From a virus: DNA of 37,965 bases. Of the stretch, positions 7,739 to 22,682 are shown piece by piece. The notes beneath the pieces were generated by a model. That model did not search any database and was not told the origin of the DNA. It saw only the letters and a list, made by a program, of their open reading frames with translations. Each line of letters opens with the position of its first letter. The first letter of the stretch is position 1. Both the position numbers and the translations under genes were made by a program. The stretch spans positions 1-37,965 of IMG/VR virus record IMGVR_UViG_3300006919_000150; one strand, given 5' to 3'.

Positions 7739-8128
7739 ATGGCTGGTAACGGAAAATTCATAAATATAACATACCCTTTTAAAGAAAGTAAGAGAGGTTT
7801 TTTTGTTGAACTAAATAATAGTGACAAACATGCCATTAAATCAGATTTAATGCATTTAATACTAACCAGAAAGGGTGAACGTCTATATATGCCAGATTTT
7901 GGAACAGACTTACTTAAATACATTTTCGAACCAAACGATTCAAAAACATTAGGTGATATAAGACTTGATATAACAGAAACTGTTAAAAAGTATATGCCAA
8001 ACCTACAAGTAAATGATGTTGTCGTTGAACAAATGAAAAATAATGAACATGTTGCCTCAATAAAAATTGACTATACAGTTACTGATGGTGTGTTCCAAGA
8101 AACTGATTTTGTTATTATACAATTATAA
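7739..8128 (+). CDS. Baseplate wedge protein gp25-like
   Basis: A 129-aa protein, the size of T4 gp25 (132 aa). It carries the family signature GERLYMPDFGTDLLKYIFEP in the middle, followed by a helix rich in Asp/Thr (LGDIRLDITETVKKYMP) and a terminal beta segment. Gp25-like proteins are part of the conserved core of contractile injection systems: with gp6 and gp53 they make the wedge around the central hub and nucleate the sheath. Immediately followed (11 nt) by the gp6-like gene, the order seen in T4. It starts a new transcription unit after a terminator. Confidence 0.88.
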   Translation: MAGNGKFINITYPFKESKRGFFVELNNSDKHAIKSDLMHLILTRKGERLYMPDFGTDLLKYIFEPNDSKTLGDIRLDITETVKKYMPNLQVNDVVVEQMKNNEHVASIKIDYTVTDGVFQETDFVIIQL

Positions 8129-8139
8129 AAAAATTAATT

Positions 8140-9957
8140 ATGGCTAAAAAAATAAATTACCAATCAAGAAACTTTGCCGATGTTAGAACAGAGTTGTTAA
8201 GTTTTGTTAAACAATACTACCCAGATATATTTAATGACTATAATGATGCTAGTGTTGGTATGATGCTTTTAGAACTTAACGCAGCTGTAGGTGATATGCT
8301 TTCATTTCACACTGACAGAATGTTTCAAGAAACACAAATAGACTTTGCACAAGAAAGAAGTTCAATCTTATCAATGGCTAGAACATTTGGACTTAAAGTT
8401 CCTGGTAAAAGACCTTCAGTAACCATTTGTGATTTTTCAGTTGTAGTACCAGTTTTTGGTGATACATTTGATGTTAGTTATTGTCCTATCATAGAAATTG
8501 GTGCTCAAGTATCTGGAGGTGGTAAAGTATTTGAAACTACAGATGAAATAGATTTTACTAGTCCATTCACAAGTGGAGGTATCCCAAATAGACTAGTAGT
8601 ACCAAATATAGATAATAATGGTAATATCGTTAGTTATACTTTAACTAAACGAGAAATGGTTACTAATGGTGTGACTAAAATATTTAAAAGAACATTATCG
8701 GATTCTGATGTAAGACCATTTTTTGAAGTTCTTTTACCAGATGATAATGTCTTATCTATAAATTCAATAATAACGTTAGAAGGTACAAGTTATAATAATA
8801 ACCCAACAACTGGAGAATTTTATAATGAAAATAATAGATGGTATGAAGTTAACGCTTTAGCAGATGACATTGTTTTTATTGAAGATTCAACTAGAATAAG
8901 TGATGATATAACAGTTAAACCAGGTAAATATAAAAGAGTTGACCAAAGGTTTATCAGAGAATATACTGACAACGGGTTTACTAAATTAATATTTGGTGGT
9001 GGTACTGAAGATATATCAGCACTTTGTGATTTTGATGTAAATAAATCGTTGGTAAATAGAATTGGTGATTTTATTAATAATACTTCTCTAGGTTTGACAG
9101 TAAGTGCTAATAAAACTCTTTTTGTTTCATACAGAGTAGGTGGTGGTGCTAATACAAACATTGGACCTAATACCATTAATACTGTTACTCAAAAAAATAT
9201 GAGTGTAAATGGTTCTGATAGTAGTATAAATCAAAGGGTTACCAATTCACTTAAAGTAAATAACCCATTACCAGCTTTAGGTGGTAAAGATGAGCCATCA
9301 GTTGAGGAATTAAGAAATTTAGTTAGGTATAATTTCTCTTCTCAAGAAAGATGTGTAACAATAGAAGATTACAAAACAAGGATAGGTTTAATGCCAGGTA
9401 GATTTGGAGCTCCATTTAGAAATAATGTTATGGAGATACAAAATAAAATTAAAGTATACACACTAGTTTTAGATGCCAACGGTGAATTAAGCACTTCTTT
9501 AACGTCAACACTTAGAGAAAACTTAGCAACATATTTATCTGATTATAGAATGATTAATGATTATATTGAAGTTGATAATGGTAAAGTATTCAATTTAGGT
9601 TTTGAAGTTGATTTATTTGTTGATAAGCAATTTTCTCAATCTGAAATTATAGCACAGGCAGCAACGACCATAACCAGTTATTTTGATATTAACAAATGGG
9701 GTATGGGTGACAATATATACATAGCCCAACTAATAGAACAAATTAATAATGTTCCTGGAGTTTTAAATGTAATTGACCTAAGAATTTATAATAAAGTTGG
9801 TCAAGGTAAATATTCATCTAATGAAGTACCTCAACCGTATATTGATGATGCCACAAGACAAATTGATTTATTAGGTGAGTATACTCTATTTGGTGACCCA
9901 ATAGGTATGTTTGAGATAAAAATACCGTCAACGGATATTAAAATTAGGGTTAAGTAA
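8140..9957 (+). CDS. Baseplate wedge protein gp6 / baseplate J-like
   Basis: A 605-aa protein (T4 gp6 is 660 aa). The N-terminus YQSRNFADVRTELLSFVKQYYPDIFNDYNDASVGMMLLEL and the following DMLSFHTDRMFQET are typical of gp6/J-like wedge proteins. The central part (about 100-330) is beta-rich, and a region around 385-420 (PSVEELRNLVRYNFSSQERCVTIEDYK) resembles the conserved J-domain 'LR..A...FR...RAVT..DY' pattern. Gp6 forms the inner ring of the baseplate with gp25. Starts 11 nt after gp25 with the A/T leader AAATTAATTATG. Confidence 0.87.
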   Translation: MAKKINYQSRNFADVRTELLSFVKQYYPDIFNDYNDASVGMMLLELNAAVGDMLSFHTDRMFQETQIDFAQERSSILSMARTFGLKVPGKRPSVTICDFSVVVPVFGDTFDVSYCPIIEIGAQVSGGGKVFETTDEIDFTSPFTSGGIPNRLVVPNIDNNGNIVSYTLTKREMVTNGVTKIFKRTLSDSDVRPFFEVLLPDDNVLSINSIITLEGTSYNNNPTTGEFYNENNRWYEVNALADDIVFIEDSTRISDDITVKPGKYKRVDQRFIREYTDNGFTKLIFGGGTEDISALCDFDVNKSLVNRIGDFINNTSLGLTVSANKTLFVSYRVGGGANTNIGPNTINTVTQKNMSVNGSDSSINQRVTNSLKVNNPLPALGGKDEPSVEELRNLVRYNFSSQERCVTIEDYKTRIGLMPGRFGAPFRNNVMEIQNKIKVYTLVLDANGELSTSLTSTLRENLATYLSDYRMINDYIEVDNGKVFNLGFEVDLFVDKQFSQSEIIAQAATTITSYFDINKWGMGDNIYIAQLIEQINNVPGVLNVIDLRIYNKVGQGKYSSNEVPQPYIDDATRQIDLLGEYTLFGDPIGMFEIKIPSTDIKIRVK

Positions 9958-10439: not shown

Positions 10440-13400
10440 ATGTCAGATAATATTAGAATAAGGACAACAGTAGGTAGTAAAGATAAATCAGTCAATTTAA
10501 AAATTGACCAGAACTTTGATTTTATTGAAATATTATCGCTTAAAATATCCCAAGAGGATGCATATAGACGTTTTTGTTCTGATTATGGAGTTGCAGTTGG
10601 TAGAGTTACTGTTAATAATGGTTTAGGGGTTCCTAATGCTAAGGTATCTGTATTTATACCTATTGATGAAGAAGACGCTATAGACCCAGAAATACTAGGT
10701 CTTTACCCATACGAAGTTGTTGGAGATAAAGATGAAGATGGTATACCTTATAACTTATTAGCTAGAAGTAACAGAGGTAAGAGTGACAAATGTTTTACCC
10801 CAGTAGGTACATTCCCAAATAAAAGAGAAGTACAGGATAATCCAGAAATGGGTGAAATATTCTGTAAGTACTATAAATTTACTACCAGCACTAACAAGTC
10901 TGGAGATTTTATGTTCTTTGGGTTACCAGTAGGTAGCCATTTTATGCATGTTGATGCTGATGTATCAGATATTGGTTATTTATCCCAAAAACCATACGAT
11001 TTAATAAGAGAAGGTGTAAGTAAATTCAAGTTCGAATCAAATACTAAGTTTAAAAATAGAGAACAAGATAGTAAACCTACACAAATAAACACCATATCAC
11101 CAGTTACTGTTACTGTTTTACCTTTTTGGGGTGATACGGAAGAATGTAGTATAGGTATAACTAGAACTGATGTTGATTTATTAACTAGAATAGTACCGAG
11201 TGCTATATTTATGGGTTCAATAATCTCAGATAATGAGAAAAACTCAATTAACAAAAAGTGTAGACCTAGAAAGAAACTAGGTAGAATGGATGAAGTTATT
11301 ACTGGTGAAGGTCGAATAGAAATGCTTAGGAAGACCTCAAATGGTGGTATTGAAAGGTTCGATGTGGAAGGTGGTGAATTAATTGACGAACATGGTACAT
11401 GGGCCTTTCAAGTACCTATGAACCTAGACTTTATAACCACTTCTGAAGACGGTACAATAATACCTTCAGAAGACCCAACCAAAGGGATTCCAACAAGAGG
11501 TGAATATAGATTTAAAATATCTATGGCCGAAAGTGGTGGCGAAGGTAGACTTAGAACTAGAGCTAATTATTTAGTACCTCACAACCCTACTAGAATACAA
11601 GATGTTGATTATAGCTTTGATGGTACAACTAGAAATTCAAGTTTCGCGGAATTATTTTGGAATAAAATTTATACAGTTAAAAATCATTTACCAAGACTAC
11701 AACCAAATAAGAATGTTGAAAATAGAAATTTTGTAGGTATTAAAGATGTTGATAGCGGGAGTAGTAGTCCATTTCCTTTTAATAGATTAGATAATGACTT
11801 TAACCCTTTATTTGCTATTTTATGTATTATAATTAATATCATAGCATTTTTAGTTATCTTCTTCAATAGTGTTATAATCACACTATTAAATATTGTTTTA
11901 AGTATACTAAACGTGGTTCTTAGAGTTATATGTAATGTGCTTAAAGTTTTCTCTAGTCTTATTTGTGGTTTACTAGGAGCTATCCCAGACTGGATTCTAG
12001 AAGTAGATACGTGTTCGTGTAAAGAAGACGCATGTATAGGTTGTGGAGAAAATTGCGGCTGTAGATGTGATTGTCCTATTATACCTTATATACCTTATAT
12101 AACTCTAGGATGTAGTGATGATGATGAAAGAGTTTACGCTCCAGGTGGGTTTAGAAAGGCGTTACCAGACGCACCCTTTACTCCTGGTAGTTGTGATGGA
12201 TGTCCTTCTAGTAATTCTGTCTACCCATTTAAACTTGCATGGGAGGCAACCAAAGCAAACCAAACAGATACAAGCAACATGACTGAGGATGATGACCCAT
12301 CATGTAATTGCGACCCAGATAATTCTAATACATTAGATTTCTTTTATCCTAATGATGGTGTTGAAGGTCACTGTGCTCTGGAAACTATACCACCTGGTGA
12401 TGCTGGATGGACTAGTTGTATTACAATTTCACTAGCTGAATCATTAAACGTATTTAAATTTGACTTTTACAATGATTGGATTAACGGTACTCTTTATTCG
12501 TTTTTACTAAAATATAAACGTAAAAGAAATGGTAAAGAAAAGTTTTGTGAGGTCGATTGCGATGGTGATTCAGATAATAATTGTAAGAAAAATCATATTG
12601 TTGATTCTTGTGTGGCTGGGTTCCCACAAAATGCTGATTCTGGAATTTTAAATGATGGTGTTAATACTAAAACAACTGTCCAGGTAGAAGAAGGTTATAT
12701 AAAAAAATATGAGGATGAATTATTTTATGCTGCATACTCAAAGTTCGGTGTTAAAATGTGGGCAACTGATATTGTTAGTCTAGGAGCTATGACTGATTGC
12801 GATTGGCAAGGAATCCCAAAAATATATGAAGGGTTGGTAGACACATCATTTAATAAACCACCACTTACCGCAGAACGTGTTGATGATTCGGCTGAGATTG
12901 AAACTAGTGGATTCGATAATGATGGACCATACGGTTGTACTCAAGGTACTGGTAATAGTTCCTTAATAGGTGCAATAACATGTTTTGCTTTTTTAACTAA
13001 TGAAATAAACTGCGTTAACATACGTAGATTATGTGAAATAGGTGTAGGTCTAGATGAAATAAGAGAAGATAGTAATGATAACCCAATTCCAGTAGATAAT
13101 TTAATAAGTAATCAAGAAGTGGATAACCCATTTATTAGAGGTACATTTGCTTATGTTAATGGTTTAACACCAGTAGCAACTGATGGAAATCCAGCCCCAC
13201 CAGGATATTCTGGCAGTATTGGGGATTTAATACCATTTGTATTTTTTGATAAGGGTAATGGTGAAAGTAATGTGAACTTTCCAGATAGTAACCCATGGTT
13301 ATCAGATGCTAATTATGTTAATTTTAGAAATGTTAATACTAGTAAGGATGTGTGGCAATATGAAAATTCTTTTTATTTCTATTTTGGTTTAAGAAGAAGT

Positions 13401-15149
13401 GCCTTACAAAAAATGAAAAGAAAATACTTCACACCATGTAGAGATGAAAAAGAAGTAGATTTTTATTGCATATCAACCAATTTGGTTGAAGACGATAGTG
13501 ACCCAAATAACGGTACTGGAGAATTACAAATAGAAATGGTTGGAGGACTTGCGCCATATACATATCAGTGGACAGGACCAATAATTACAATTAATGGAAC
13601 ACCAACACAATACCCTTTAGGTAGTCCAAATACACCAACTCTTACAAATTTATTTGGTGGTACTTATACTGTAAAGGTTACCGATTCAATTGGTAATGTT
13701 AGTGACTGTTCATTCTTAATACCAGGACCAACTGGTATACTATGCTCAATAGATACTATACAACCAGTTCAACAGTTTGGTAGCTCCGATGGTGAAGTTG
13801 TAATAAATATTAGTGATGGGTTAGCACCATATACTTATGATTTAAAACTAGCTGGTGTATCAGTTGATAATGGCAGCACATCCAGTAACTCTATTACTAT
13901 AACTGGTCTAGCGGCTGGTAGTTATACTTTTGATGTTGTAGATTCTGGACAGGTTCAAACAACATGTTCACAGTCTTTTGAGGTAACTGAACCTGGTGAA
14001 TTTAGTATAACTGTTGAGAGTAAGGATTTTACATGTTTTAATAGTGTAGATAGTCAAATATCTATTAATACTAATGGTACTGGTACAGCCCCATTTGATT
14101 TTGAAATAACAGGACCCATAGGAGGTTCCCCAACTACTTATACTAATAGTAACGTTAATAATGTAGATGAGGGTACTTATAACATAGGTGCTATGGATGC
14201 AACTGGACAAATAGCTAATGCTTCTGGTGTTGTTATTTTAAGACCATCAGATATCAGCATCACCACTACACCTAGTAATGGGATAGTATATCTTGGGTGT
14301 AAAAATAGTACTAATGGTAGTTTTAAATTTTCAGTTAACGGAGGTACACCAGACGTTAATAACAAATATATAGTTGGGATTGAAACTTCTACTGGTTACC
14401 CTACTGGATATGACCCATCTTCTACATCACCTAATGTCATACAGAACACTCAATACACTATAAGTAATTTAGGTGCTAATAGTTTTTTTAACGGTCAAGG
14501 GAATATTAAAATTACCGTAACAGATGATAATGGATGTGAAAAAGAAAATGAAATAGTTGAAATAAGAACCCCTAAAATAGATTTAGTAGCTGGTAATTAT
14601 AGTATAAATCAAAATTTAGGTGTTCAAGCTGTATGGACTCCACCAACAGATACATCAGCTGGGTACCATACAATTGTGAGTAACGCTAATTGTAATGAGT
14701 TAAAGATTAAAGTAGAAGGCTTTAAGGGTGGTTGGGGTAATGAATACACTAATTATAATAGTTCTGGTATACCTACTAGTGGTCCACTAGGTAAGTATAG
14801 ATTTGAGTTACTTTACAGTTATAATGGTGCACCTTGGAGTGATACTGGTGAATTTCATATCTATGATACCGCCACTAACCTACCAAACGCTAGTGGTACA
14901 TTTCCACCATATATTTGGACAATTGGTAAATACTCTGATACACTTCAATACGGTGGTAAATTAGGTATACCAGGGATGAAGTATAAAGTTAGAGTTAAGT
15001 CTTATTTGTTATCAGACTCAAGTATATACTGTGAAACACATATGGCTGGACCAAATATACAAGTGAGGTGGAATGGCGGTACAAATGGCTTTAATGCTAT
15101 TAAGGCAAACTTATCATCTCAGACCCAATGTATAAACGCTAATTATTAA
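10440..15149 (+). CDS. Giant tail/baseplate protein with hydrophobic segment, Cys cluster and SprB-like repeats
   Basis: A 1569-aa protein. Residues 50-180 resemble a carboxypeptidase-regulatory/Cna-B-type Ig domain (VGRVTVNNGLGVPNAKVSVF, later GDFMFFGLPVGSHFMHV). Residues 456-520 form an almost uncharged hydrophobic stretch, long enough for two membrane helices. Residues 525-558 hold nine cysteines in CxC and CxxC spacing. Residues 1010-1378 contain four Ig-like repeats of SprB type, with GGLAPYTYQW, GGTYTVKVTDSIGNVSDC, DGLAPYTYDL, AAGSYTFDVVDSG and ITVTDDNGC as landmarks. The C-terminal 190 residues look beta-rich. Position between gp6 and further baseplate genes suggests a virion component that contacts the host surface. 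SprB repeats belong to gliding adhesins of Flavobacteriia; their use here is inferred to be surface or glycan binding. Function is unproven. Confidence 0.8.
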   Translation: MSDNIRIRTTVGSKDKSVNLKIDQNFDFIEILSLKISQEDAYRRFCSDYGVAVGRVTVNNGLGVPNAKVSVFIPIDEEDAIDPEILGLYPYEVVGDKDEDGIPYNLLARSNRGKSDKCFTPVGTFPNKREVQDNPEMGEIFCKYYKFTTSTNKSGDFMFFGLPVGSHFMHVDADVSDIGYLSQKPYDLIREGVSKFKFESNTKFKNREQDSKPTQINTISPVTVTVLPFWGDTEECSIGITRTDVDLLTRIVPSAIFMGSIISDNEKNSINKKCRPRKKLGRMDEVITGEGRIEMLRKTSNGGIERFDVEGGELIDEHGTWAFQVPMNLDFITTSEDGTIIPSEDPTKGIPTRGEYRFKISMAESGGEGRLRTRANYLVPHNPTRIQDVDYSFDGTTRNSSFAELFWNKIYTVKNHLPRLQPNKNVENRNFVGIKDVDSGSSSPFPFNRLDNDFNPLFAILCIIINIIAFLVIFFNSVIITLLNIVLSILNVVLRVICNVLKVFSSLICGLLGAIPDWILEVDTCSCKEDACIGCGENCGCRCDCPIIPYIPYITLGCSDDDERVYAPGGFRKALPDAPFTPGSCDGCPSSNSVYPFKLAWEATKANQTDTSNMTEDDDPSCNCDPDNSNTLDFFYPNDGVEGHCALETIPPGDAGWTSCITISLAESLNVFKFDFYNDWINGTLYSFLLKYKRKRNGKEKFCEVDCDGDSDNNCKKNHIVDSCVAGFPQNADSGILNDGVNTKTTVQVEEGYIKKYEDELFYAAYSKFGVKMWATDIVSLGAMTDCDWQGIPKIYEGLVDTSFNKPPLTAERVDDSAEIETSGFDNDGPYGCTQGTGNSSLIGAITCFAFLTNEINCVNIRRLCEIGVGLDEIREDSNDNPIPVDNLISNQEVDNPFIRGTFAYVNGLTPVATDGNPAPPGYSGSIGDLIPFVFFDKGNGESNVNFPDSNPWLSDANYVNFRNVNTSKDVWQYENSFYFYFGLRRSALQKMKRKYFTPCRDEKEVDFYCISTNLVEDDSDPNNGTGELQIEMVGGLAPYTYQWTGPIITINGTPTQYPLGSPNTPTLTNLFGGTYTVKVTDSIGNVSDCSFLIPGPTGILCSIDTIQPVQQFGSSDGEVVINISDGLAPYTYDLKLAGVSVDNGSTSSNSITITGLAAGSYTFDVVDSGQVQTTCSQSFEVTEPGEFSITVESKDFTCFNSVDSQISINTNGTGTAPFDFEITGPIGGSPTTYTNSNVNNVDEGTYNIGAMDATGQIANASGVVILRPSDISITTTPSNGIVYLGCKNSTNGSFKFSVNGGTPDVNNKYIVGIETSTGYPTGYDPSSTSPNVIQNTQYTISNLGANSFFNGQGNIKITVTDDNGCEKENEIVEIRTPKIDLVAGNYSINQNLGVQAVWTPPTDTSAGYHTIVSNANCNELKIKVEGFKGGWGNEYTNYNSSGIPTSGPLGKYRFELLYSYNGAPWSDTGEFHIYDTATNLPNASGTFPPYIWTIGKYSDTLQYGGKLGIPGMKYKVRVKSYLLSDSSIYCETHMAGPNIQVRWNGGTNGFNAIKANLSSQTQCINANY

Positions 15150-15159
15150 TTAACGAATA

Positions 15160-16905
15160 ATGATAGATAGAAAAAAACATAAGTTAAAAGAGTTTAATTC
15201 AAAACAGGACAATAACAAAGATACATTTGTTAATGTTAATCTTTCTGGTGAAAGAAATTTACTACCACCAGGTGAAATTAATCATATTGTAAACTCTGGA
15301 GATGAATTTAACGAAGAGCGTAAAGAATCTACGTTATATAGACTTATATTTACTGTTAATCCTATATTTAGTAATCCATTATTTAATGTAAATACAACTG
15401 GATACCAAGGTAGTTTTTTTAAACAAACAACTAGTAGTATTAAAAATAATTCATGGAAAACATTTAAAGAACTTGTATTTAGAAAAAATGTGTTGTCCCA
15501 AGATATTGACGAGGTGGCATATAATTATGAAGAATCAATAAATAGAAATTTATTAGAGAGAAATGGTTGGTTTGGTTTTAATGACCCAGATGTTACAAAA
15601 GCAGAACCATGTAAATTTTATGACATGGAACCAACTAGAAAAAGATTTGATTTAAATTCAAACGTTGCTAAGAATTGGGATATTTTAATTACATATCCTT
15701 CAAGTTCTGATGATACACATCATATAGTTCAGAATGGATTATTAATTGTTGATGCTAAATATGTGACTGTTGGTGCTAGAAAAATGTTAGCATTAGCGTC
15801 TAGTACTTTTCATGGTTTAACCAATGGTGATAGAGTTAAAGTTGAAGTCCCTTCATTAGGTTTGAATAGTACTTATAGAGTTGAGCGATTAGGACTTGAT
15901 GATGGTAGTTTAAAATATAATTATTTTGTTATTGATGTAAAAATTATTTCATTACCATCTAGTGTAACAGGTAGAATGAGAAGAAATTTCAATGGGGAAT
16001 TATCAACATATTATTTTAGAAAGGTAAAAAGTTTGATGATTAATAAAGATGATTATGATATCTATCCTCTTGCTTTTAGTGAAAGTGTTTATAATGACCA
16101 GATATACCAAATAGCGATAACAGAAGATTTAGATGTGCGTGATTTAAAAGATAATTTGGGTAGACCACTTAGTGAGTTGTTTATTACATTTATGAAAACA
16201 GATAGTGACCAAGGAAACAATAATAAATTTACTAACGTTTTATCTGGTGTTGATTTAGAATTTTTACAAGGCAATGTGAGTGATATAAATAACTCAAATA
16301 TTAGGGTTATGTATGGCGGTGCTGCACCATCATTACCAGATACTCACACACCATTAAGTGATAGCCCAATAGTTTTAGGTAATAATAGAGAATATTATCT
16401 AGATGTAGTTGAGTTCAACAGATTAGAACAAAGAGAAGTTGTGTTAGCTGATGTAATGCATAGGTTTAACACATATAATAGAGAAATAGCTAGTACATCT
16501 ACTGGAGATTCACCTAAAGGACCTAGAAAAGAAGGTTATACATATAAACCACACCATAGGGTAAAAATAAGAGAATACTCACTTTATGTTGAGCAAGGTG
16601 ATGAATCTACAGCTGGAATTCCAGATTATGCTGCCGATTTAGGGGATGGTAGATATTTATGGAGAGACCTACTAGATATTGGAGTTTTTGATGGTGAAGA
16701 TGATTTACTTGATTATCCATTTACGAATGGAGCTCATTATATTCACACAAATATATGTCTAATAAATGGTAGACAAGACCCATTTGGGGTGTATGGATTA
16801 TATTATGCTGGTAGTGGAAGTGGTGATAATTTTGACCCAGCTGACCCAAGAGGGGATGCAATAACAGATAAATGGATAACAAATATTGGCGATGACATAT
16901 GTTAA
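15160..16905 (+). CDS. Putative tail/baseplate structural protein
   Basis: A 581-aa protein without a family I can name. The first 60 residues are charged and probably disordered. The remainder is rich in beta-forming residues and Asn/Gly/Ser turns, typical of this virion module. Near the C-terminus it has YLWRDLLDIGVFD, DYPFTNGAHYIHTNICL and GRQDPFGVYGLYY, a compact aromatic region that may be an interaction domain. It starts 11 nt after the giant protein gene and overlaps the next gene, so the genes are probably translated together. Assignment as structural is from position, size and composition only. Confidence 0.7.
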   Translation: MIDRKKHKLKEFNSKQDNNKDTFVNVNLSGERNLLPPGEINHIVNSGDEFNEERKESTLYRLIFTVNPIFSNPLFNVNTTGYQGSFFKQTTSSIKNNSWKTFKELVFRKNVLSQDIDEVAYNYEESINRNLLERNGWFGFNDPDVTKAEPCKFYDMEPTRKRFDLNSNVAKNWDILITYPSSSDDTHHIVQNGLLIVDAKYVTVGARKMLALASSTFHGLTNGDRVKVEVPSLGLNSTYRVERLGLDDGSLKYNYFVIDVKIISLPSSVTGRMRRNFNGELSTYYFRKVKSLMINKDDYDIYPLAFSESVYNDQIYQIAITEDLDVRDLKDNLGRPLSELFITFMKTDSDQGNNNKFTNVLSGVDLEFLQGNVSDINNSNIRVMYGGAAPSLPDTHTPLSDSPIVLGNNREYYLDVVEFNRLEQREVVLADVMHRFNTYNREIASTSTGDSPKGPRKEGYTYKPHHRVKIREYSLYVEQGDESTAGIPDYAADLGDGRYLWRDLLDIGVFDGEDDLLDYPFTNGAHYIHTNICLINGRQDPFGVYGLYYAGSGSGDNFDPADPRGDAITDKWITNIGDDIC

Positions 16906-17866
16906 TAATTATAAAATAGCGTTTAAAGGTCTTAGTGGTAGCACAACTATTATAGACCCATCAACTGGTGAAGAAACAGTTACCAATGTAAACTCTATTA
17001 ATGTGCCTATAGGTCAGCTACCTAGAATGGCTGGTCAACAAGAAATTATTGACACTAAGTTTGTTGATGTAGAGGTTGAAAATTCTATCAATGCGATTTT
17101 CGATTATGAAAAAACTAAATTCATACCTAAAATGCGTAATGATAGTGATTGTAAAAATATAATATATAATATTAATTTTTTAGAAAGAAATGCTGCTACT
17201 GTTGCTTCACCACTTATACCAGGAGAACCTACTACACCTTTAACTTATTTAACTGATACCTTTTGGGGTAGTGATTTAGGTGATATAAACAAAAAGTTTG
17301 TTTATGATGATTTAAATTTTAAAAAAAATGTATTTACTAAATCTTTCTTAAGATTAGATTTTTATGATAGTGACATAGGTACATCACAAAGATTATTATC
17401 ATTTATAACATTGTACCCAAATATTAGTAAAGATGCCTACGCTATAAACCCAACAGTTGGGTTAGTGCCACAACCAGATGCTTATCCACTTAGATTTAGA
17501 CTAGGTAATTCTATTAAAGATAGAAATTTAAACGGTGAGGGATTTTTTATGTATTATTACAAAGATGAAGTACTACCAACAGTACCAAAAAATTTATACA
17601 TGAAAGCTGTATTTGCTAATGCTAAAACAGGTAAAGCAATAAGATTAATGTCTGGTAATAATCCAACAATAGGGATTTCTGATTTAGCTAAAACAACTAT
17701 AGGTACTTCAGATTTTAATTCACTATACACCAAGTACGAACTAGTTAGAACAACAGAAGGTTATTTTTATAAACTAGATAAAACTTATTCTCAGAACGTT
17801 TCTGAAACATTTGCTACTGGTGATAATACTATAACAGTTAATTTATACGAAATAAGCGCTGGATAA
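16892..17866 (+). CDS. Putative tail/baseplate structural protein
   Basis: A 324-aa protein, of unknown family. The start chosen is ATG at 16892 (MTYVNNYKIAFKG); the frame is open to a TTG at 16886, but ATG is the more usual codon. It overlaps the previous gene by 14 nt. The N-terminal part has GSTTIIDPSTGEE and a VPIGQLPRMAGQQEIIDTKFVDVEVE segment; the rest contains FLRLDFYDSD and SFITLYPNIS, beta-rich and likely part of a virion beta-sandwich. The stop overlaps the next ATG (TAATG), implying translational coupling with the 312-aa protein. Confidence 0.7.
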   Translation: MTYVNNYKIAFKGLSGSTTIIDPSTGEETVTNVNSINVPIGQLPRMAGQQEIIDTKFVDVEVENSINAIFDYEKTKFIPKMRNDSDCKNIIYNINFLERNAATVASPLIPGEPTTPLTYLTDTFWGSDLGDINKKFVYDDLNFKKNVFTKSFLRLDFYDSDIGTSQRLLSFITLYPNISKDAYAINPTVGLVPQPDAYPLRFRLGNSIKDRNLNGEGFFMYYYKDEVLPTVPKNLYMKAVFANAKTGKAIRLMSGNNPTIGISDLAKTTIGTSDFNSLYTKYELVRTTEGYFYKLDKTYSQNVSETFATGDNTITVNLYEISAG

Positions 17867-18804
17867 TGAAAAAGCATAAAAGAAAAATATTACTTGAAGA
17901 TTATATTAGTAGAGAACCAGATACATGGGGTACTTATACGTGGGATATACCATCTCAACAAAGTAATTTTGCCACAGGTATTGATTCATCTGGAAATACT
18001 GAACCATCTTTATTATTAAATGTTTTTATTACACAAGACATGGATGATATGGGTATTGCTACAGATATGGAATATACTTCATATGATGGTAAAGATTTAG
18101 GTAATAATTTTTATAGTCCATTAACAGAAAAATTAACTGGTTTAGGGTTATCTTTTTCTTTTATGACTAGTGGTCCAGCAGCCTTGCTACCACATGATAT
18201 ATACAATTTAGATACTAGATACCCAGACAAGGTATTAAGTGATTATAACGAGCCTGGTATTAATTTAAGTGCATATACTTTCCAAAGATTTGAAGAAGTT
18301 AAATCATATGATTTAAATAATAGATATATACCAAATTTTAATATGGCTGCTAATAAGACATATACAGACTATCAAGGAAATTCGTATAGTAATGTTAGTA
18401 AGGTCTTAAGTAATAATAATTATAGTCCTATAAATTATATTCTTGATGGTGATAATAATGAGACTATAGATGAAAACAACCCATCACCTCAACTAGGTTT
18501 ATTTTATAAAACTTATGTTGGTAAAAATAGAGCTGTATCCGATAACGTTTTTGGTACATACCTAACAAATGTAACTGAATTGTATTATAAGGGACAAGCT
18601 TTTAACGAAACAAACACAAGTTTAAATGCACTAGGTAAAGAAGAATATTTATTTGGTATAACAAGTTCGCCAAATGTATATAGTGATGTATTTATTGATA
18701 GAGGTAGAACAACAGTATATCAATCACATATGCAACTTGGTGAGATAGGTAATTTTAATGAATTAATTAATTATGGTAATAGTTACTATAAAATAGTTAA
18801 ATAA
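17866..18804 (+). CDS. Putative tail/baseplate structural protein
   Basis: A 312-aa protein of no recognised family. It begins with a basic stretch (MKKHKRKILLEDYI), then is rich in Asn, Tyr, Ser and Asp with few charged clusters, the composition of a secreted or virion-surface beta protein. No transmembrane segment or catalytic motif is evident. Its ATG shares one base with the stop of the preceding gene (TAATG at 17864-17868), so expression is coupled. A candidate promoter follows its stop, marking the end of the first structural sub-operon. Confidence 0.7.
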   Translation: MKKHKRKILLEDYISREPDTWGTYTWDIPSQQSNFATGIDSSGNTEPSLLLNVFITQDMDDMGIATDMEYTSYDGKDLGNNFYSPLTEKLTGLGLSFSFMTSGPAALLPHDIYNLDTRYPDKVLSDYNEPGINLSAYTFQRFEEVKSYDLNNRYIPNFNMAANKTYTDYQGNSYSNVSKVLSNNNYSPINYILDGDNNETIDENNPSPQLGLFYKTYVGKNRAVSDNVFGTYLTNVTELYYKGQAFNETNTSLNALGKEEYLFGITSSPNVYSDVFIDRGRTTVYQSHMQLGEIGNFNELINYGNSYYKIVK

Positions 18805-18816
18805 TGATATTTATAT
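18805..18816 (+). promoter_or_regulatory. Candidate phage late promoter
   Basis: TGATATTTATAT lies directly after the TAA of the previous gene and 22 nt before the ATG at 18839. It shares the ATATTTATA core with sequences ahead of several other structural genes. Function is inferred from recurrence. Confidence 0.4.
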
Positions 18817-18838
18817 AAAGAAGTAAAAATTAAATAAT

Positions 18839-19753
18839 ATGGCAACAGGAACATATGGAACAGTAAGACCAGCAGACATGTCAAGTGATGACGTAGAAAT
18901 CACGGTCTTTTATTCAAAAAATAGGGAAAATGCTAACACAGAAGTTTTCAAATTAGATTCTGCTAATCTAGTACCAATAAATAATCCAAATAACACTAGT
19001 GGTGGTTTTGAAATCTTTGGTGGTCTTTATAATTTAAAATTACCTGTTACCGACTTTAATAGTAAGGGTATATATACTATTGTATTTAAACCTGTTGAGA
19101 TAAGAACTAAAATTGTTGATTGTGGTGTGTTATCAGCATACCCAGATATAAAAGGAATTGTTATTGATTCAACAGATAGTAATTTAACACCTTTTTTAGA
19201 TAGGTTAGAAAATAATAATTTAGTTGGTTATAGAATTGAGTACTTAACTACTGATTCTTCTACATCAAATAAAAAAATACCTAATTTATTTAGAGTAATT
19301 ACTTCAAATAATAAGTCTGAACCTGTAAACCAAAACTTAAGTAATGTAAATCAAAAAGCTATTAGATATAGATTTAATGATAACTCAAACTTAGTTTTTT
19401 GTACAGTAACACCATCAGCACCTAGTAATGTTAAACCTAATACGTTACCATTTATAGGTGGACCTAATCAAGATATTATAATAACAAATACATTTTTCAC
19501 ACCATTTGTTATGGAAATAGAAATGGTGGAATATGACATAGAAACACTAGCTATAGGGTTATTTGCTAACCAAACTAAGAGTCTTGAAGATGGTATTTAT
19601 ACTGTTTACAACTTTAGTAATCAAATTTACAAACAATACAACTTGTATGAAATTAAAGATAGATTTAGTGGTAAACCATTATTTGAGGTTAAAGAAAATA
19701 GACTTAATAATATTGATTTTGATAAAGAGTTTGATAATATAGCAGAAGAATAA
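18839..19753 (+). CDS. Putative tail/baseplate structural protein
   Basis: A 304-aa protein, unknown family. The N-terminal half reads like an Ig-type beta-sandwich (VEITVFYSKNRENANTEVF, GGLYNLKLPV, GIYTIVFKPVEIRTKIVDCG). The second half has a conserved-looking GGPNQDIIITNTFFTPFVMEIEMVEYDIETLAIGLF segment followed by a helical, charged C-terminus. It opens a new sub-operon behind a candidate promoter and is followed after 4 nt by the wedge-like 974-aa protein, so it may be a partner of that protein in the baseplate. Role inferred from position only. Confidence 0.7.
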   Translation: MATGTYGTVRPADMSSDDVEITVFYSKNRENANTEVFKLDSANLVPINNPNNTSGGFEIFGGLYNLKLPVTDFNSKGIYTIVFKPVEIRTKIVDCGVLSAYPDIKGIVIDSTDSNLTPFLDRLENNNLVGYRIEYLTTDSSTSNKKIPNLFRVITSNNKSEPVNQNLSNVNQKAIRYRFNDNSNLVFCTVTPSAPSNVKPNTLPFIGGPNQDIIITNTFFTPFVMEIEMVEYDIETLAIGLFANQTKSLEDGIYTVYNFSNQIYKQYNLYEIKDRFSGKPLFEVKENRLNNIDFDKEFDNIAEE

Positions 19754-19757
19754 TTTT

Positions 19758-22682
19758 ATGGGTGGTAATAGTGATAGAATAAAGGTAATTGGTTATGCTA
19801 AAAGAACGTTTTACGATAACGGAATTGAGTATAGAAATTTTACTGACGATTTAGTTGGTAATCAGCTAACTAGTGATGCTGATGGTACTGATTCTGTATT
19901 TACGTATGGTAATTTTGTTACAACTGTAAATTACGAAGGCAGATTAAGTAGAATATTCTCAACCAAAAAGTTTAGTAGCTTCTATTCTTTAAGTACACTT
20001 AATTTAGATGATAAAAAAGCTAATGTACTATTATCTAATAATATTAACACTGTAATAAATGTTGATAAAACTAATTTAGGTAGTTTTGCTTACTTTGGGT
20101 CATCAACTGAATTTGTTAGAGTTAGTCTTGAAAAAATAATAACTAATTGGCCAGCAGCTTTATACATGTATCCATTTAGAAATGATGGTGATACTACAAT
20201 AGTTGGTGATACTTTTAGTGATTATACTTTTAATTTTAATTTACAGAAATCAACTTTTAATGTTGATAATAATTTTATAATTAACAATTATGAGATTAAT
20301 TATAAATCTAATGGGACTAATATAGACACATTTAATGAAGATAATGATTTAAGAAATTTAACTATAAATTACTTAGATTATGTGGTATATTACAATGACA
20401 CAGAGTACCCAATTATAGGTTTCCAAAGCTCACCTGGAAATAGAAATGGAACATTAACTTTTGAAGTTGACGGGGACCCATTTGGTTCTGTTAGTTCAAC
20501 AACTATAGAGTACCATATAAAACCTAAAAAAGAGCTTGAGGAAGAATTTTTTAACTCACTTAATGAATACGAATCTTATTTATTAAATAGGTTAGTAACA
20601 CCTAAGTACACTTCTAAATATAATTATAAAATTGTATCTGACAACGGTAGGATTATAAACGCTAGTAAAACACTTACATGGCCAGTAACTGATGGGTACA
20701 ATATTGACTTTAATACTGCTGAATATGCTACTTTTGTAACTGATTTATTAAGTGTTACTGAAGGTAAAGACAGTGTTGAGACTAATCTGATGGTTAGATT
20801 TCTAACATCGGAAAGTATATCTGATTTTGATACACTACCTAAGTGTGATGGAACTGAAGAAGAGACTGCTGGTCAAAAAATGAATAAGACCTTAAAGATT
20901 TATGGTAGAGAATTTGACGAGATAAAAAAATATATTGACGGTATTTCATTTGCAAATGTTGTTACATATGACAAACAAGCGAATATCCCAGACCAACTAG
21001 TTAAATATTTAGCTAGAACTCTTGGGTGGGAAATAACATCATCTATAGTTGATAACGACTTAATAAATAATTATTTAAAAATAGGTGGTTCTTCATATCC
21101 AGGAGAAAGTAGAGGGTTGTCAGCTAATGAAGCTGAAGTTGAGTTATGGAGAAGATTAATATTGAACTCAGCCCACATATGGAAAAATAAAGGTAATAGA
21201 AACCCTATAGAATTTTTCTTTAAACTAATTGGTGTTCCAGATGGTCTTATAGATTTTAATGAACATATTTACTTGGCTAAAGAACCTATAGATATGGATT
21301 TATTCTATAAAATTTTAGATAATAATAACCTATCAACAGACTTAAGCCTTTATAATATAGATTCTGAGGGTTATCCTAGATTTAATAGAAATACTAGTGA
21401 TATGTGGTTCCAGAAAGGTGGAGGATGGTACAGACAAACTGCTGGCTCCGCAGCCACTGAGTATACTCTAATTGGTAATAATCCACATGTTGGGCCATAT
21501 GACGGTGGTTATGAATACATAGCTCAATTAGATAACATAGTACCTAACTTTAGTGCGTTTACTATAACATCTACAACCGTTACTAGCGCAACCACTCAAT
21601 TATTCACTAACTATAATAGTGGTCTTATTAATGGCTATTCCAGTACATACTATGTAGAACCTCAATCACTTGACGGAGCAGAATTAAATGACTTAGTTTT
21701 ATTAACTACTAGTACTATAAAAGATATTTGTCCACAGGTTGAATTAACTGATTGTGGTTGCGACCCTAAAGATGAAGATGATGCAATGATTATTGATATT
21801 AAAAATGCGGACATTGGCTTTATACCTACTGAATGTGAAGGAGTACAATTCGAATATATAGATTATGTGGGTGGAGTAGGACCTATTAACCATTCTTTAC
21901 AATGGGCTAATAACCACTACTATTGGAAATTACCAAATACTAATGGGAGCAATACTACTTATCTAAATAAATATTATAGGCAAGAATGTTGTCAAAAAGT
22001 AGCACAAGGGTACCCATATTATTTGAAGGAATATGTATACCCTGTTAATGCTGGTGGGAATTATAGTACGGGAAGTCAAAGTCAAACTCTTAACCTTAAT
22101 GCATACTCGAGCATTTTAGAAAGGTTTAGAGATGATTCAAGTCAATATACTTTCCAACAAATGCTAGACTTTAGAGATAAATTTTGGTTTGGAAATAATA
22201 AAAGGGATGTAGTTAAATATACAGAGGGTTATATTTGTGGTACATCACCAGGTTATGGGGTTAAAGATTTCCAAATCGATGGATGTGGATGTGATTTATC
22301 GTGTGGATGGTTATTATCTGGACCAACCTTAGAAGACATGTATTACATGAATGGCTCGTATTATTTAAAATTTGAAGACCTAGACGGTAGCACAGTAATT
22401 ACAAATCCAGCAGATAGTTGTTTTTGCTCAACTTTAGTACAAACTGAGATAGGTAATCATGTAATACCAGAAGAGATTATTGACCCATACACAAATGAGG
22501 GTGGGTATGCTTGTAAACTAAAAGATACTGGGGTTAGGTATTTTCTTACTAATAATACTGTAGAAGATAATTATTATTATGCTGTATTTCATAATAGAAG
22601 AAATGGGTTTGCGCCTTGTAATGATATTGATTCTCCATTTTTAATAAAGAGTGACTGGGGCACTAAATCACTATATGAATAA
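19758..22682 (+). CDS. Baseplate wedge protein, P2 gpI / T4 gp7-like
   Basis: A 974-aa protein. Residues about 370-500 carry the most informative region: IPDQLVKYLARTLGWEI, then WRRLILNSAHIWKNKGNRNPIEFFFKLIGVPDG. This matches the pattern of phage tail proteins of the P2 gpI type, which in T4-like phages corresponds to the gp7 wedge region ('A..LGW', 'I..K.KGT...IE'). Upstream is beta-rich; downstream lies a long Tyr/Asn/Gly-rich region with cysteine motifs (DCGCDPKDEDD, YYRQECCQKVAQGY, CGCDLSCGW). Presence of gp25- and gp6-like genes upstream supports a wedge role. The assignment to gp7 specifically is inference; a tail-fibre connector is possible. Confidence 0.6.
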   Translation: MGGNSDRIKVIGYAKRTFYDNGIEYRNFTDDLVGNQLTSDADGTDSVFTYGNFVTTVNYEGRLSRIFSTKKFSSFYSLSTLNLDDKKANVLLSNNINTVINVDKTNLGSFAYFGSSTEFVRVSLEKIITNWPAALYMYPFRNDGDTTIVGDTFSDYTFNFNLQKSTFNVDNNFIINNYEINYKSNGTNIDTFNEDNDLRNLTINYLDYVVYYNDTEYPIIGFQSSPGNRNGTLTFEVDGDPFGSVSSTTIEYHIKPKKELEEEFFNSLNEYESYLLNRLVTPKYTSKYNYKIVSDNGRIINASKTLTWPVTDGYNIDFNTAEYATFVTDLLSVTEGKDSVETNLMVRFLTSESISDFDTLPKCDGTEEETAGQKMNKTLKIYGREFDEIKKYIDGISFANVVTYDKQANIPDQLVKYLARTLGWEITSSIVDNDLINNYLKIGGSSYPGESRGLSANEAEVELWRRLILNSAHIWKNKGNRNPIEFFFKLIGVPDGLIDFNEHIYLAKEPIDMDLFYKILDNNNLSTDLSLYNIDSEGYPRFNRNTSDMWFQKGGGWYRQTAGSAATEYTLIGNNPHVGPYDGGYEYIAQLDNIVPNFSAFTITSTTVTSATTQLFTNYNSGLINGYSSTYYVEPQSLDGAELNDLVLLTTSTIKDICPQVELTDCGCDPKDEDDAMIIDIKNADIGFIPTECEGVQFEYIDYVGGVGPINHSLQWANNHYYWKLPNTNGSNTTYLNKYYRQECCQKVAQGYPYYLKEYVYPVNAGGNYSTGSQSQTLNLNAYSSILERFRDDSSQYTFQQMLDFRDKFWFGNNKRDVVKYTEGYICGTSPGYGVKDFQIDGCGCDLSCGWLLSGPTLEDMYYMNGSYYLKFEDLDGSTVITNPADSCFCSTLVQTEIGNHVIPEEIIDPYTNEGGYACKLKDTGVRYFLTNNTVEDNYYYAVFHNRRNGFAPCNDIDSPFLIKSDWGTKSLYE

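Follow-up and report, generated by a model that had tools for sequence, protein, structure and literature searches.

A candidate baseplate protein of a probable Bacteroidota phage carries four SprB-type Ig-like units that appear to be old and inherited

Introduction

SprB of Flavobacterium johnsoniae is a Type B substrate of the T9SS that is anchored by SprF and moves along the cell (PMC12635249). The window studied here, a whole IMG/VR record of 37,965 bases, encodes a 1569-aa protein with the same Ig-like unit in tandem as the SprB-repeat (PF13573) adhesins of Bacteroidota. It differs from these adhesins in having only four units and a phage baseplate gene context, with no T9SS sorting domain found and no N-terminal hydrophobic signal seen, and the Type B T9SS/SprF-anchor features of F. 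johnsoniae SprB were not seen in it. GhpA, the grappling-hook adhesin of Aureispira (PDB 9flp, 9fly, and others), also consists of strings of Ig-like domains and is the best solved fold match, but it is a cellular surface protein and was found by fold only, not by sequence. Conversely, the Hoc and T5-type decoration proteins are Ig-like phage domains and the nearest solved relatives of the units by sequence, but they are head or neck proteins, and T4 Hoc gave matches to PKD and I-set but none to SprB.

A likeness by description is provided by crAss-like phages, whose tail-associated proteins are reported to carry BACON tandem repeats that form one lineage distinct from the bacterial copies (PMC6949934); here too a tandem Bacteroidota-associated domain is linked to phage tail genes, although the domain family and the phage group are different. 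For Flavobacterium phages, the gliding machinery has been suggested as the site of the receptors (PMC7345892). Our literature search found no paper that describes SprB repeats in virion proteins of phages, though UniProt already labels one phage protein “SprB repeat” (A0A6J5LD72).

Results

Gene context and architecture

The gene of the 1569-aa protein lies downstream of gp25-like and gp6-like baseplate wedge genes, the latter having its nearest annotated phage match in Flavobacterium phage immuto (28%). The protein comprises a long body, a junction motif, an array of four tandem Ig-like units (residues ~1008-1380) starting about 25 residues past this motif, and, outside the array, a C-terminal tail of 189 aa. 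The features are as follows.

7739..8128, + strand: gp25-like baseplate wedge gene (phrog_261, 2e-20)
8140..9957, + strand: gp6-like baseplate wedge gene (phrog_6, 3.7e-19)
10440..15149, + strand: whole gene, 1569 aa; intact ORF with 80 related IMG/VR loci
10440..13394, + strand: conserved body, residues 1-985 (alignments A2 and A4); present also in repeat-less relatives
11805..11978, + strand: 58-residue hydrophobic helix, residues 456-513 (predicted helix, hydropathy in relatives, column counts)
12012..12074, + strand: Cys-rich stretch, residues 525-545 (sequence, pattern scan); not kept as such in relatives
13380..13418, + strand: junction motif YFGLRRSALQKM at the body end; seen in repeat-bearing and repeat-less relatives
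13461..13718, + strand: SprB-type unit U1, residues 1008-1093; 28.3 bits with Pfam alone, 44.0 bits with the host-only profile
13725..13979, + strand: SprB-type unit U2, residues 1096-1180; 30.4 bits with Pfam alone, 42.1 bits with the host-only profile
13986..14234, + strand: SprB-type unit U3, residues 1183-1265; 33.1 bits with the host-only profile, under the Pfam cut-off
14235..14579, + strand: SprB-type unit U4, residues 1266-1380; 13.0 bits with the host-only profile, most diverged
14580..15149, + strand: variable C-terminal tip, residues 1381-1569, and stop codon; low identity in relatives

The order gp25, gp6, 1569-aa gene and next five genes was kept in about 50 loci, placing the gene inside a baseplate cluster of conserved order. 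The five large genes downstream (15160-22682; 581, 326, 312, 304, and 974 aa) gave no convincing Pfam or PHROG family match and are probably further uncharacterised baseplate or tail genes. A first, sequence-only reading of the window had called the 1569-aa protein a tail/baseplate protein; its gp25- and gp6-like neighbours agree with this label, which nevertheless derives from position, the body matching no known baseplate family.

The repeat units

Four consecutive Ig-like units of SprB type had been proposed at 13467-14575, i.e., residues 1010-1378, and the profile searches bore this out. The Pfam SprB family (PF13573, curated cut-off of 28 bits) matched the whole protein in three stretches (E-value 3.9e-11, 42.8 bits), and the match was also obtained in a six-frame search of the window. 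When the units were scanned singly, U1 and U2 scored above the curated cut-off and U3 and U4 below it. We also used a host-only profile built without phage sequence from 127 Bacteroidota units, which had been found via profiles derived from the phage units and hence are the host units most similar to the phage ones. This profile matched all four units (scores listed above), each with a higher score than any of 1000 shuffles of the region's residues attained (maximum 8.8 bits), so that the four units are real, U4 being the most diverged; the U4 of L004, the nearest relative, reached 27.6 bits. The landmarks announced for every unit, GG-APYTY-W and GTYTVKVTDSxGN, were literal only in U1 (GGLAPYTYQW and GTYTVKVTDSIGN) and present in U2-U4 only in degenerate form.

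The attribution of the units to a Bacteroidota kind was likewise upheld. The four-unit profile (A5) had matches in 76 of 297 Bacteroidota genomes and in none of 298 genomes from two other phyla (200 from the phylum to which a MAG titled Clostridiales belongs, 98 from that of a Prochlorococcus SAG); the unit matches are thus restricted to Bacteroidota among the phyla tried. A Hoc-like PHROG profile (2973/4069) matched residues 1010-1086 (6.1e-13), unspecifically, as it also matches a T9SS-type SprB protein. We did not retain the corresponding label of “Hoc-like head protein,” which rests on Ig similarity; the gene context points to the baseplate instead of the capsid.

The AlphaFold2 model of the array, obtained with an alignment of 28 sequences (A1), was all-beta with a mean pLDDT of 80; by block, values were about 79-96 across U1-U3, with less confident parts in both U4 and the tip. 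The best solved matches of this model in Foldseek were GhpA fragments (best E-value 2.9e-12), followed by many Ig and Fn3 chains; TM-scores were low, as expected for a string of domains aligned as one rigid body. The array is thus predicted to adopt the Ig-like beta-sandwich of the SprB family.

Relatives and ancestry of the units

The scan of IMG/VR recovered 80 related loci, 55 once near-copies were removed, using the window's own peptides as queries, so that the sample leans towards the window. Besides the window, 27 relatives had at least three tandem units immediately following the body; in 18 long relatives there was no unit at all. Pfam SprB matches were present in 26 of 44 related records. 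On the body tree (45 rows, unrooted), array presence required two changes, against 14.2 for shuffled labels, a count compatible with a single origin of the array, gain and loss looking alike on an unrooted tree. No isolate in the phage collection had the 1569-aa protein; LR756502 gave the sole hit, a weak one to the repeats. In four loci (L064, at 14815-16026, L024, L027, and L028), a separate downstream ORF of 359-404 aa bears one further SprB-like unit, detected with an iterated profile.

Eight MAG/SAG records contained relatives. Four were labelled Bacteroidota or one of its subgroups and the rest were mixed: L085 (a Prochlorococcus SAG record), L084, L086, and L089 carried the labels Prochlorococcus, Mycoplasmatota, Clostridiales, and Wolfebacteria. 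The mixed labels suggest that phage contigs were binned with the wrong organism, and because such contamination is likely in these records we did not assign a host genus from them. The source is probably a large phage with a Bacteroidota host.

The units of the window and its 27 relatives were strongly sorted by position in the array. For 93 of the 101 phage units, the best match in another phage occupied the same position, compared to an average of 27 and a maximum of 51 in 5000 within-genome shuffles. The tree of 228 units, based on 83 columns and without resolution at many forks, required 19 label changes against 94.6 after shuffling. Similarity between phage and host units (0.16-0.21) was below that among host units (0.285). 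For 9 of 28 U3 and 5 of 17 U4 units, a sampled host unit scored closer than every other phage unit. The comparison and the tree singled out no host genus. Positional orthology, the unit tree, and the low phage-host similarity together argue that the array most likely predates the divergence of the sampled phages and that its positions were distinct by then. The units are orthologous by position and appear to form an old inherited arm common to many related phages. The sequence-only reading had suggested acquisition of host-adhesin repeats; the first two lines of evidence led us to reject a recent acquisition from one host.

Identity to L004 was 80% over residues 1-450; U1-U4 gave 64, 46, 30, and 36%, and the tip 29%. 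The medians over relatives followed the same trend, with 59% at the start of the body, 36, 29, 26, and 23% in U1-U4, and 15% in the tip, the latter over 47% coverage; a Pfam search of the tip gave no match. Such a gradient, expected from a base-to-tip organisation, could reflect one here, and relaxed constraint would look alike.

Body, junction, and sorting signals

The AlphaFold2 model of the body (pLDDT 79, pTM 0.78) had no convincing fold relative among solved structures, where no sequence relative was found either, and comparison with known baseplate proteins gave no family, sequence, or convincing fold match. Its single strong match, in both fold and sequence, was the uncharacterised A0A8S5LA66 of Myoviridae sp. 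ctPuP5 (Foldseek E-value 1e-78, 30% identity), which differs in that its 994 residues correspond to the length of the body alone. We also considered the proteins that follow gp6 in Flavobacterium phage immuto and found no homology with the body. Most bodies end with the motif YFGLxPGKTAL, whether or not they bear repeats.

In all relatives long enough to hold it, including repeat-less ones, a hydrophobic stretch occupies the same place. Within the helix, all 45 sequences keep Asn476; Asn484 and Asn491, seven residues apart, are conserved as well. Both membrane insertion and a buried helical bundle are possible. Judged by hydropathy, the whole protein has this segment (452-516) only and no N-terminal hydrophobic signal.

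The idea that the protein is recognised by the host gliding machinery found no support, since neither Pfam nor NCBIfam gave a match to a T9SS sorting domain in the 1569-aa protein. With the same libraries, CHU_C was detected in an unrelated SprB protein of a huge phage and Por_Secre_tail in host SprB loci, so that the test can detect such domains. The former protein (L129:14379-19391; LR756502.1, a 642-kb uncultured phage) has 1670 aa, with 13 SprB stretches, PKD, and, at its C terminus, the Type IX secretion domain CHU_C. Its identity with a host SprB array is about 41%, and its gene neighbours include topoisomerase II subunits, SpoVR, and glutamate-synthase-like genes. LR756502.1 thus encodes a seemingly complete exported adhesin of host type, although the record may be a chimeric assembly.

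Discussion

Our preferred reading, to which we would give a probability of about 0.55, is that of a virion protein whose stalk, of SprB type and ancient, holds out a variable tip that serves adsorption. The 1569-aa protein would belong to the virion of a large, T4-like Bacteroidota phage and probably form part of its baseplate or tail tip. Its body of about 985 residues would dock onto the virion and, past the conserved junction, the inherited stalk of four units would point outward with the variable tip at its end, positioning this tip during adsorption to a Bacteroidota surface and perhaps making weak contacts itself. Gene order, the modular architecture, and the identity gradient all point to such a location, projection, and role, and the suggestion made for Flavobacterium phage receptors (PMC7345892) renders a host-surface role plausible, that paper holding no evidence on the window protein itself. 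The units would come from the stock of surface-adhesin domains of Bacteroidota, with, probably, a single acquisition that predates the divergence of the sampled phages; the transfer would have run from host to phage. Two observations fit the virion reading less well, namely the body without a baseplate match and the hydrophobic helix, which is unusual for a soluble virion protein.

The units could alternatively be a generic Ig-like decoration of the Hoc/T5 type, whose role would be to tether the virion to polysaccharide, mucus, or particles without specificity, and not to help in recognising the host. The closest solved sequence relatives, which are phage decoration, neck-whisker, and Hoc proteins, the Hoc-like PHROG name, and the binding of epithelium by Ig-like adhesins of gut phage (PMC13370021) all speak for it. 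We nonetheless consider it rather unlikely, as T4 Hoc does not match SprB, the gene sits among baseplate and not head genes, and the most variable part is the tip. The helix raises another option, a non-virion protein anchored by it in the membrane of the infected cell. Its conserved position, even in relatives devoid of repeats, would fit; yet there is no N-terminal hydrophobic signal in the hydropathy scan, the gene has a fixed place in the baseplate cluster, and the regular Asn spacing also suits a buried helical bundle, making this option improbable.

Recent capture of a host adhesin segment, whether for mimicry of the host or for engaging its surface machinery, has in its favour the host-adhesin type of the units and the minority of U3 and U4 units that score nearer to a sampled host unit. 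It is largely refuted by the same-position matches, the phage-host similarity lower than that among hosts, and the sorting domain not found, and we regard it as very improbable. More speculatively, a lineage of large Bacteroidota phages would have kept through deep divergence a baseplate arm made of the gliding-adhesin domain, borne on a body of unknown fold with a hydrophobic helix. In this so far uncharacterised kind of host-contact device, adhesin-type stalks would carry the helix, membrane-active or buried, up to the host envelope; we consider this proposal unlikely.

Few of the receptor-contact proteins in uncultured Bacteroidota phages have a name. The succession of body, junction motif, SprB-type stalk, and variable tip is a recognisable architecture, by which the probable tip can be located in many phages from metagenomes. 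The array also indicates that a phage lineage can hold adhesin-type domains as an old, fixed constituent and need not have captured them recently.
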